This document shows positions 4,158 to 7,853 of a stretch of DNA of 34,458 bases, in pieces. The stretch is from the NCBI GenBank assembly GCA_030431935.1, contig JAUIIC010000013.1, positions 1-34,458 on the forward strand, written 5' to 3'. The first letter of the stretch is position 1; each line of letters begins with the position of its first letter. The translations under genes and the position numbers were made by a program. A model generated the notes under the pieces. The model saw only the letters and a program-made list of their open reading frames with translations. It was not told the origin of the DNA and made no database searches. This DNA comes from Alphaproteobacteria bacterium. GTDB lineage: Bacteria > Pseudomonadota > Alphaproteobacteria > Rhodobacterales > Rhodobacteraceae.

Positions 4158-4190
4158 AGGGCCGCCCGCGATCTGCCGGGCGGCCCTTGT
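4158..4190 (+). terminator. Candidate terminator after the DUF302 gene
   Basis: Perfect 10-bp stem GGGCCGCCCG (4159-4168) / CGGGCGGCCC (4177-4186), 8-nt loop, TTGT tail. Confidence 0.65.
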
Positions 4191-4201
4191 CATTCGGGGG
4201 G

Positions 4202-4230
4202 TTGACCATACATTCGCAATCATGAATATA
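4202..4230 (+). promoter_or_regulatory. Candidate promoter with embedded SqrR/BigR-type operator
   Basis: TTGACC (4202-4207), 17-nt spacer, AATATA (4225-4230); palindrome TACATTC-N8-GAATATA at 4209-4230 contains ATTC-N8-GAAT. Confidence 0.6.
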
Positions 4231-4272
4231 AATCAGGGCGCGGCAGGCGCCGGAAACGATGGAGAGACATCC

Positions 4273-4323
4273 ATGACGACCAATACGGGAACACAGTGCA
4301 GCGGCATCGGGGGCCCTTTCTGA
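4273..4323 (+). CDS. Putative 16-aa leader peptide MTTNTGTQCSGIGGPF
   Basis: ATG preceded by GGAGAG; TGA (4321-4323) overlaps the ATG (4323) of the next gene as TGATG. Too short for the ORF track. Confidence 0.4.
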   Translation: MTTNTGTQCSGIGGPF

Positions 4324-4754
4324 TGGAAACCGAGTTCACCCCCCTCGTCTCGCTGGCTGGCGGGCTTCTGATCGGCCTGGCGTCGGTGCTCTTGATGGCC
4401 GCGCGCGGCCGTGTCTTCGGCGCGACCGGCATTCTTGCCGGGTTCCTGTCGCCGTCGTCGTCCACCGACTGGGCCTGGCGCGCGGCGCTTCTGGCCGGCA
4501 TGGTCACCGGGCCGCTGGTCTACCTGGCCTTTGCCGGTGATTTCCCAGCGATCGAGGTGCCCGTGTCCAAGGCCATGATGATCGTCGGCGGCCTGATCGT
4601 GGGCGTCGGCGTCACCTACGGGTCGGGCTGCACCTCTGGACACGGCGTCTGCGGCATGGCCCGCCTGTCGCCCCGGTCCATCGTGGCCACGCTGACCTTC
4701 ATGCTGTTCACCGGGATCACCGTCTACGTGGTCCGTCACGTGCTGGGGATGTAA
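4323..4754 (+). CDS. YeeE/YedE (DUF395) sulfur-compound transporter half, PmpA-like
   Basis: Multiple TM segments and the GSGCTSGHGVCGMARLSPRS motif typical of YeeE/YedE; ATG 4323 preferred over the longer ORF start at 4296. Confidence 0.8.
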   Translation: METEFTPLVSLAGGLLIGLASVLLMAARGRVFGATGILAGFLSPSSSTDWAWRAALLAGMVTGPLVYLAFAGDFPAIEVPVSKAMMIVGGLIVGVGVTYGSGCTSGHGVCGMARLSPRSIVATLTFMLFTGITVYVVRHVLGM

Positions 4755-4758
4755 TCCG

Positions 4759-5196
4759 ATGAAACTGATCGCAACCTACCTGATCGGCCTTGTCTTCGGC
4801 GTCGGAATCTCGATTTCGGGCATGTCGAACCCGGCCAAGGTGCTGAACTTCTTCGACGTCGCCGGCACCTGGGACCCGAGCCTTGCCTTCGTGATGGGCG
4901 GTGCGCTGCTGGTGGCCTTCTTCGGCTACAAGCTGGTGCTCAAGCGCCCCGCGCCGATCTTCGAGCCCGTGTTCAACGTGCCCACCAGCCGGGTGATCGA
5001 CGCCCGCCTGCTCGGCGGCTCGGCCGTCTTCGGCGTGGGCTGGGGCATCGCGGGCTTCTGCCCGGGCGGCGCGCTGCCCGCGCTCGGCACCGGCAATGTC
5101 GATGTTCTTGTCTTCACCGCCGCGCTGGTGGCGGGGATCTTCCTGGCCAAGGGACTGATGGCGGCAAGTGCCCGCCGCCAGGCCGCCGCGGCCTGA
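4759..5196 (+). CDS. YeeE/YedE (DUF6691-like) sulfur-compound transporter half, PmpB-like
   Basis: TM-rich; GISISGMSNPAKVLNFFDVAGTWDPSLAFVMGG and GWGIAGFCPGGALPALG motifs. Confidence 0.8.
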   Translation: MKLIATYLIGLVFGVGISISGMSNPAKVLNFFDVAGTWDPSLAFVMGGALLVAFFGYKLVLKRPAPIFEPVFNVPTSRVIDARLLGGSAVFGVGWGIAGFCPGGALPALGTGNVDVLVFTAALVAGIFLAKGLMAASARRQAAAA

Positions 5197-5224: not shown

Positions 5225-6112
5225 ATGTTCGACTATCCCGTAGAGATGACCGTCAAGCCCCAGGTCAAGGCGTTCTTCGACGAGGCGACCAACACCATCA
5301 GCTACGTGGTGAAAGACCCCGCGAGCGATGCCTGCGCCATCGTCGACTCGGTGCTCGACATCGATTACGCCGCCGGCCGGCTCAGCTATGACAGCGCCGA
5401 CGAGATCATCGCCTATGTCCGCGAGCAGGGCCTGAAGGTCGAGTGGATCATAGAGACCCATGTCCACGCCGACCACCTGTCGGCCGCGCCCTACCTGCAG
5501 AAGGAACTGGGCGGCAAGATCGGCATCGGCGACCAGATCACCGTGGTGCAGAACACCTTCGGCAAGATCTTCAACGCCGGGACCGAGTTCCAGCGCGACG
5601 GCAGCCAGTTCGACCGGCTGTTCAAGGACGGCGACACCTACCAGATCGGCGGGATGACCGCCTTCGCCATGTACACGCCGGGCCACACGCCCGCCTGCAT
5701 GACGCATGTGGTGGGCGACGCGGCCTTCGTGGGCGACACGTTGTTCATGCCCGACGGCGGCTCTGCGCGCTGCGACTTCCCGGGCGGGTCGGCCGAAACG
5801 CTGTTCGAGTCGATCCAGAAGGTGCTTTCGCTGCCCGACGAGACGCGGCTTTTCATGTGCCACGACTACGGCCCGAACGGGCGCGAGTACCAGTGGGAAA
5901 CCACCGTGGCCGAGGAAAAGGCCAACAACATCCATGTCGGCGGCGGCAAGTCCAAGGAGGACTTCGTCAAGTTCCGCACCGAGCGCGATGCGCAGCTGGA
6001 CATGCCCCGGCTCATCATCCCCTCGCTGCAGGTGAACATGCGCGCCGGCGACATGCCCGAGGCAGAGGACAACGGCACCACCTACCTCAAGGTGCCGCTG
6101 AACAAGCTGTGA
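5225..6112 (+). CDS. MBL-fold hydrolase, Blh/ETHE1-like persulfide dioxygenase
   Basis: ETHVHADHLSAA (HXHXDH), YTPGHTPACMTHV, FVGDTLF, FMCHDYGPNGREYQWETTV; standalone, with no DUF442 domain. Confidence 0.85.
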   Translation: MFDYPVEMTVKPQVKAFFDEATNTISYVVKDPASDACAIVDSVLDIDYAAGRLSYDSADEIIAYVREQGLKVEWIIETHVHADHLSAAPYLQKELGGKIGIGDQITVVQNTFGKIFNAGTEFQRDGSQFDRLFKDGDTYQIGGMTAFAMYTPGHTPACMTHVVGDAAFVGDTLFMPDGGSARCDFPGGSAETLFESIQKVLSLPDETRLFMCHDYGPNGREYQWETTVAEEKANNIHVGGGKSKEDFVKFRTERDAQLDMPRLIIPSLQVNMRAGDMPEAEDNGTTYLKVPLNKL

Positions 6113-6176
6113 TGCCTTGCGGGCGCGCGGGACGGCTTTCCGCGCGCCCCTTACCCCGCCGCAAGGATGATGCGAC

Positions 6177-7853
6177 ATGGACATCAGGACCATAGATGAC
6201 GGTGTCTCCGTCAGCCCGCAGATCGCGCTGGACGATCTGGCAGGCATAGCGGCGGCGGGCTTTCGCGCCGTGGTGTGCAACCGCCCCGACGGCGAGGCCG
6301 CCGACCAGCCCACCTTCGAAGAGGTCGAGGCCGCGGCGCGGGCCGCCGGGCTTCAGGCGCTCTACATGCCCGTGACGCCCGGCAAGGTGGCCGACGCCGA
6401 TGCCGAGGCGTTCCGCCGCGCGCTGCGCGACCTGCCGGGCCCGGTTCTGGCCTATTGCCGGACCGGCACGCGCTCGGCCACGCTCTGGTCGCTGGCGCAG
6501 GCGCGCCACAGGCCGGTGGCCGAGATCCTGTCGGCCACGAAGGCCGCGGGCTACGACATGGCCGGCGTCGTGCGGCGGATCGCCAATGGCGGCAAGACGC
6601 CCACCGACACCGGCGACGCCAGCTATGAGGTGGTGATCGTGGGCGGCGGCGCGGCGGGCATCGCCGTGGCCTCGTCGCTGAAGGCGCGGATGCCGGGGCT
6701 GGAGATCGCCATCCTCGACCCCGCCGACATCCATTACTACCAGCCCGGCTGGACGATGGTCGGCGGCGGCATCTTCGATGCCGAGGACACCGCGCGCACC
6801 ATGGGCAGCCTGATCCCGAAGGGCGTGCACTGGATCAAGTCCGCCGTCGCCGCCTTCGAGCCCGAGCAGAACGCCGTCATCCTCGATGGCTGCCGGGTGG
6901 TGAAATACAAGCGCCTCGTGGTCTGCCCGGGGCTGAAGCTCGACTGGCACGGGGTCGACGGGCTGGTGAAAACGCTGGGCCGCAACGGCGTCACCTCGAA
7001 CTACCGCTACGACCTCGCCCCCTATACGTGGGAGCTGGTGCAGGGCCTGAAAGAGGGCCGCGCGCTCTTCACCCAGCCGCCGATGCCGATCAAATGCGCC
7101 GGCGCGCCGCAAAAGGCGCTCTACCTGTCGGGGGATGCCTGGTTCCGGCGCGGCGTGCTCAAGGACATCGACATCCAGTTCATGAACGCGGGCGGCGTGC
7201 TTTTCGGCGTCAAGGACTATGTCCCGGCGCTGGAAAGCTACGTGAAGAAATACGGCGCCACGCTGAATTTCTTCCACACCCTGGTGTCGGTGGACGGCCC
7301 CGCGCACAAGGCCACCTTCCGTGTCGCCAAACCCGACACCGAGGCCACCGAGGTCACCGTCGATTTCGACATGCTCCACGTGGTCCCGCCGCAGGTCGCG
7401 CCCGATTTCATCCGCGTCTCGCCGCTGGCGGATGCCGCCGGGTGGGTCGACGTGGACCAGGCCACGCTGCGCCACAAGACCCATGACAACATCTGGTCGC
7501 TTGGTGACGTGATGAACGCGCCCAACGCCAAGACCGCCGCGGCCGCGCGCATCCAGGCCCCGGTGGTGGCCGAGAACATCGTGGCCGACATCCGCGGGCA
7601 CGCGCCCATCGCGCAATACAACGGCTACGGCTCCTGCCCGCTGACGGTGGAGCGCGGCAAGATCGTGCTGGCCGAGTTCGGCTATGGCGGCACGCTTCTG
7701 CCGAGCTTCCCCAAGTGGCTGCTGGACGGCACCAAGCCCAGCCGCGCGGCCTGGCTTCTGAAGGAACAGATCCTGCCGCCCGTCTACTGGAAGGCCATGC
7801 TGCGCGGCAAGGAGTGGATGGCCAAGCCCGAGAAGGTGACGGCCCGGGCCTGA
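6177..7853 (+). CDS. Bifunctional DUF442 (TIGR01244 rhodanese/phosphatase-like) + type II sulfide:quinone oxidoreductase fusion
   Basis: N-terminal DUF442 domain with YCRTGTRSA (C-X5-R) loop; C-terminal SQR with VVIVGGGAAGIAVA, VVCPGLKLDW and PPMPIKCAGAPQKALYLSGD. Confidence 0.88.
   Translation: MDIRTIDDGVSVSPQIALDDLAGIAAAGFRAVVCNRPDGEAADQPTFEEVEAAARAAGLQALYMPVTPGKVADADAEAFRRALRDLPGPVLAYCRTGTRSATLWSLAQARHRPVAEILSATKAAGYDMAGVVRRIANGGKTPTDTGDASYEVVIVGGGAAGIAVASSLKARMPGLEIAILDPADIHYYQPGWTMVGGGIFDAEDTARTMGSLIPKGVHWIKSAVAAFEPEQNAVILDGCRVVKYKRLVVCPGLKLDWHGVDGLVKTLGRNGVTSNYRYDLAPYTWELVQGLKEGRALFTQPPMPIKCAGAPQKALYLSGDAWFRRGVLKDIDIQFMNAGGVLFGVKDYVPALESYVKKYGATLNFFHTLVSVDGPAHKATFRVAKPDTEATEVTVDFDMLHVVPPQVAPDFIRVSPLADAAGWVDVDQATLRHKTHDNIWSLGDVMNAPNAKTAAAARIQAPVVAENIVADIRGHAPIAQYNGYGSCPLTVERGKIVLAEFGYGGTLLPSFPKWLLDGTKPSRAAWLLKEQILPPVYWKAMLRGKEWMAKPEKVTARA

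Follow-up and report, generated by a model that had tools for sequence, protein, structure and literature searches.

Positions 4209–4230 of the window, the 34,458-nt stretch of a Rhodobacteraceae contig (JAUIIC010000013.1) analysed here, very probably constitute the operator through which SoxR, a regulator of the SqrR/BigR subfamily encoded ∼11.8 kb upstream, would repress the pmpAB-PDO-SQR operon, as judged from sequence comparison. The element is a palindrome composed of a left arm, TACATTC (4209–4215), a spacer, GCAATCAT (4216–4223), and a right arm, GAATATA (4224–4230). The genes downstream, pmpA, pmpB, PDO and SQR, belong to sulfide and persulfide oxidation, and their control is likely to be exerted through this site (Table 1). 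The first-pass annotation had read the element as an SqrR/BigR-type operator and had proposed a search of the genome for the regulator and for further sites. This reading is supported and right in substance: the genome encodes a homologue of the SqrR/BigR/SoxR group with both cysteines and carries more copies of the motif at other sulfur-gene promoters. The operator is a well-supported new example of an already known type of switch and not a new kind of system.

Table 1. Location of the operator, predicted promoter elements, genes and further motif copies (window coordinates unless a contig is named)
Feature	Location	Strand	Basis or remark
Operator TACATTC-N8-GAATATA, core ATTC-N8-GAAT (4212–4227)	4209..4230	.	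sequence, profile, family-wide recurrence
Predicted -35 TTGTCA, preferred	4187..4192	+	consensus scan; TTG position in promoters of other genera
Predicted -10 TACATT, coincident with operator left arm	4209..4214	+	consensus scan
Alternative -35 TTGACC, from first-pass annotation	4202..4207	+	read from sequence; not called by consensus scan
GC-rich inverted repeat GGGCCGCCCG...CGGGCGGCCC, possible terminator	4159..4186	+	read from sequence
pmpA (YeeE/Sulf_transp)	4323..4754	+	PF04143
pmpB (DUF6691)	4759..5196	+	PF20398
Persulfide dioxygenase (PDO)	5225..6112	+	PF00753; NF040641 positions 138–423
BLH_phosphatase (sulfurtransferase) domain fused to sulfide:quinone reductase (SQR)	6177..7853	+	PF04273 and PF07992; NF049943, TIGR01244
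soxX site	C239:5595		exact ATTC-N8-GAAT
soxC site	C239:1514		exact ATTC-N8-GAAT
Rhodanese site	C64:10013		37 bp before ATG
Thioredoxin trxC site	C73:17471		exact ATTC-N8-GAAT
AidB-like MBL hydrolase site	C161:8845		exact ATTC-N8-GAAT
tsoY site	C223:35172 (L052:943-2154)	minus	operator directly before start

The palindrome had been described as carrying 7-bp arms with one mismatch and as enclosing ATTC-N8-GAAT; sequence and coordinates are exact, and the core is the sole copy without mismatches in the window. When one mismatch is allowed, the window contains two matches as against 4.7 expected, so that the 8-base core at this stringency is unremarkable. A 28-column profile, whose training sites come from other genera only and whose core columns were selected, scores 35.9 at 4209–4230; the next best position in the 34 kb reaches 6.6 and the best among 30 dinucleotide shuffles 11.7. 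By the unselected columns of this profile (flank and spacer), too, the site ranks among the highest 0.03% of positions in the window. The motif, assigned to SqrR in the first-pass annotation, is indeed in print: ATTC-N8-GAAT is given as the deduced site of Rhodobacter capsulatus SqrR (PMC9774250).

Across the 4.03-Mb assembly the exact motif occurs ten times. Spacings from N0 to N16 together account for 158 sites, and as the other spacings average ∼9 each, the bare N8 count is at chance and an enrichment in this genome was rejected. This count would fit the view that the palindrome is chance AT-rich promoter sequence and that the operon is constitutive or under a different regulator, a view that is nevertheless very improbable: the profile from other genera picks out 4209–4230 by a large margin, the genome's own copies cluster at sulfur genes, the N8 spacing is strictly conserved in rhodanese promoters (below), and in a related genome, G023, pmpA is itself closely preceded by the operator ACATTCGCAACACCGAATAT. 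Sulfur- or thiol-related genes are located at seven of the ten exact copies, the pmpA site being the seventh, and at none of 24 controls with N7 or N9 spacing (12 sites each; Fisher exact 2e-5, a value that is indicative only, as gene classes were judged after the sites were seen). The remaining three lie in apparently coding sequence (C22 and C187) and in a gene-poor region (C105). The extended pattern TACATTC-N8-GAATGTA, with up to two mismatches, has only five sites in the assembly, and 4209–4230 departs from it at one base. The C105 site (C105:13709; in its extended form C105:13706–13727, L051:3707–3728) is likewise a one-mismatch extended operator, placed in AT-rich surroundings; despite this very good motif, no recognisable gene was found downstream.

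Recurrence within the family was surveyed by searching ACATTC-N8-GAATRT in 80 relatives, which yielded 46 sites in other genera. More than half of these (27/46) closely precede genes with a sulfur or thiol connection: rhodanese (7), tsoY (6), SQR-like (3), an RND adaptor (3; counted for its recurrence and not for a known function), trxC (2), and one each for an MBL hydrolase, a SoxH-like protein, PDO, pmpA, TauE and YeeE. Target sites of this kind are present in 17 of 40 genomes with a strong SoxR/SqrR orthologue, as against 0 of 8 without one (p 0.04). Columns on which no selection was imposed agree, the second base outside each arm being A or T at all 27 sites. A reversed-pattern control was set aside because chance matches in coding sequence may be under-represented. 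As regards individual genes, the operator immediately precedes the start of tsoY here and in six other genera, which suggests that this uncharacterised membrane protein has a function connected with persulfide; a literature search on tsoY function found no paper. In three genera (L142, L145 and L093) the operator is closely followed by the RND-type gene, which encodes a periplasmic adaptor.

The strongest evidence that the element may be regarded as a real, spacing-strict operator in Rhodobacteraceae comes from 80 rhodanese orthologues gathered by protein alone, R. capsulatus not being among those recovered. Exact ATTC-Nn-GAAT within 200 bp upstream of the gene is found with n = 8 in 60 of the 80, and with any other n between 2 and 16 in at most two; the 60 promoters are not independent events, since the orthologues are related. 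The equivalent strict scan upstream of pmpA gave one exact site in 29 promoters and no clear N8 excess, and a profile scan was therefore used for this gene. The closest pmpA relatives often lack the strict motif directly upstream of the gene, in part since another gene comes before pmpA. With the profile, many relatives, albeit not all, show a good site at the front of an operon led by pmpA or PDO, or close to it (examples are L025, L027, L030, L035, L040, L042, L043 and L047). PDO-first operons display degenerate arms, with 2/40 exact sites and 12/40 with at most one mismatch, a weak excess.

That no ArsR gene resides in the window, as originally stated, is borne out by a PF01022 search, which finds none on the window contig. 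Over the whole assembly the same search retrieves one SqrR-like gene, at about 763–1110 of contig C5 (L004). Its product aligns with R. capsulatus SqrR structures over 96 residues (E 1e-36) and with Xylella fastidiosa BigR (E 8e-20), both sensing cysteines align to SqrR, and the recognition region, SARQAAVSQQLARLRLEGLV, is near-identical to STRQAAVSQQLARLRLEGLV of R. capsulatus SqrR. The score against the NCBIfam BigR model (NF040642) is 96.5 bits, below the curated cut-off of 155, which rules out a BigR equivalog and makes the protein a relative only. The gene order is soxS, soxR and SoxT-like transporter, soxV lying at the opposite end, and relatives show the same neighbours. In a quick tree, most branches of which are weak, the gene falls nearest to SoxR genes from other genera that are linked to sox; the regulator is best called SoxR.

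The regulator had been expected to act from elsewhere. It is indeed encoded off the window contig, but nearby: exact 127-bp end overlaps, of the type left when contigs are cut at graph nodes, connect C5 with C239 and C239 with the window contig, and C239 carries soxV-W-X-Y-Z-A-B-C. The reconstructed order, C5(rc)-C239(rc)-window, is soxT-R-S / V-W-X-Y-Z-A-B-C / D-E-F / DUF302 / pmpAB-PDO-SQR, the sox gene names being derived from sequence features, order and known arrangements and not from a family search per gene. The two overlaps therefore place soxS-soxR-soxT upstream of the operator in the same sox cluster, with 11,758 bp between the soxR start and the operator centre.

A single SqrR/SoxR orthologue is present in this assembly, which is 84% complete, and many relatives possess a second ArsR paralogue; another regulator could therefore share the operator. 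It is unlikely, although conceivable on these two grounds, that such a paralogue (a stand-alone SqrR or a member of a clade marked by RQAAVSQMLARLREEG), absent from the incomplete assembly, is the main user of the site and that SoxR serves sox only: one orthologue was found, the SqrR recognition region is almost the same as its own, and copies of the motif core lie at soxX and soxC beside soxR. SoxR is the preferred regulator. Autoregulation of soxR is unsupported, as the strict spacing scan upstream of sqrR/soxR gave 0/29 exact sites and no clear N8 excess. The clade with RQAAVSQMLARLREEG in the recognition region is a second SqrR-like group that occurs beside SoxR in many relatives (L183–L188, L192, L193 and L195–L197). 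Several genomes with this clade also have PDO-first operons with the variant arms ACATTC...TATATGT, which may be its operators.

A consensus promoter scan calls TTGTCA (4187)-16-TACATT (4209) upstream of pmpA. The first-pass annotation had the operator fill the spacer between TTGACC and AATATA, a pair not called by the same scan. AATATA (4225–4230) matches TATAAT at three of six bases and is contained in the right arm, so that the operator would overlap the -10 and not merely the spacer; a different possible partner of TTGACC is TATAAA (4227–4232), at a spacing of 19 bp. Among 27 target promoters of other genera, ten have a TTG at -27 to -22 from the operator, the top offset (mean over offsets 2.8), and TTGTCA in the window stands at -23. 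The scan call and this offset favour the predicted promoter TTGTCA-16-TACATT, whose -10 is covered by the left arm, over TTGACC/AATATA. Both promoters are predictions, and in both the operator would overlap the -10. This location also bears on a further reading, in which the site is an activator element, for instance of a sigma-54 FisR-type system, instead of a repressor operator. Acinetobacter does use FisR to switch on its primary persulfide operon (PMC7315123), but the site here overlaps the predicted core promoter instead of lying upstream of it and matches an ArsR-type site, and the activator reading is exceedingly improbable.

The inverted repeat lies between the preceding DUF302 gene and the pmpA promoter; a terminator scan did not call it, and a T run is absent. 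A 16-codon leader ORF, MTTNTGTQCSGIGGPF, is situated at 4273–4323 with a purine-rich GGAGAG upstream, and its stop overlaps the pmpA start in TGATG; similar stop-start overlaps of short ORFs are seen in L023 and L026. Within the operon (5225–7853), the BLH sulfurtransferase domain, which the bifunctional Blh model combines with PDO, is here fused to SQR, and NF040641 is split accordingly, with positions 138–423 on PDO and 2–131 on the SQR N-terminus.

The sequence, the orthologue and its cysteines, the gene linkage, the conservation of the motif and the function of the targets are observed, and a repression model can be built upon them by orthology and site conservation. Reduced, dimeric SoxR would bind the inverted repeat and would block RNA polymerase from a start site that is itself predicted, because the operator shares bases with the -10 and, under the alternative promoter, with the spacer as well. 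Accumulating persulfide or polysulfide would generate a (poly)sulfide bridge between the two conserved cysteines, upon which SoxR would leave the operator, SQR and PDO would be made and excess sulfur would be oxidised. Further probable targets of the same SoxR are the promoters of soxX and soxC and the dispersed rhodanese, trxC, tsoY and MBL genes.

Close parallels are known. SqrR of R. capsulatus regulates sqr and the rhodanese gene rcc01557, represses by promoter binding and comes off the DNA once GSSH has given rise to a tetrasulfide that links its two cysteines (PMC9995734). The core motif is the same, the recognition regions are near-identical and the target functions SQR and rhodanese are shared; unlike the R. 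capsulatus case, the regulator gene here is part of a sox cluster, in a soxSRT arrangement, and the site would serve a pmpAB-PDO-SQR operon whose SQR carries a fused BLH sulfurtransferase domain. SoxR of Pseudaminobacter, Paracoccus and Hyphomicrobium, a sulfane-sulfur-responsive sox repressor, has in common with the present protein the soxS-soxR-soxT order next to soxV, the two conserved cysteines and motif copies at soxX and soxC. In H. denitrificans it binds sox and shdr promoters, and polysulfide abolishes binding reversibly (PMC10451225); the targets in the cited literature are sox and shdr genes, whereas the addition of pmpAB-PDO-SQR to its targets is a sequence-based proposal of the present analysis. 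BigR of Xylella and Acinetobacter is likewise an ArsR-family persulfide repressor for the same kind of operon, yeeE/yedE/pdo in A. baumannii (PMC7315123). In several relatives with this arrangement the regulator gene lies beside the operon, in contrast to the distance found here. Escherichia coli YgaV also has an ATTC-N8-GAAT-like promoter site, which has been footprinted, but its regulon differs (anaerobic respiration, ygaVP).

A wider proposal, for and against which confidence is evenly balanced, is that a single sox-cluster SoxR serves this lineage as its master persulfide sensor and that its ACATTC-N8-GAATRT regulon, spread through the family, extends past sox and sqr to genes with no established persulfide role, namely tsoY, the AidB-like MBL hydrolase and the RND adaptor. 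Already under the repression model above, sulfide and persulfide detoxification would be tied, in a single cluster and likely through a single sensor, to thiosulfate oxidation by sox. The analysis supplies a well-resolved operator, ATTC-N8-GAAT, with almost no other spacing in rhodanese promoters, and makes tsoY, the MBL hydrolase and the RND adaptor candidate persulfide-response genes in Rhodobacteraceae, a list that is open to experimental test.
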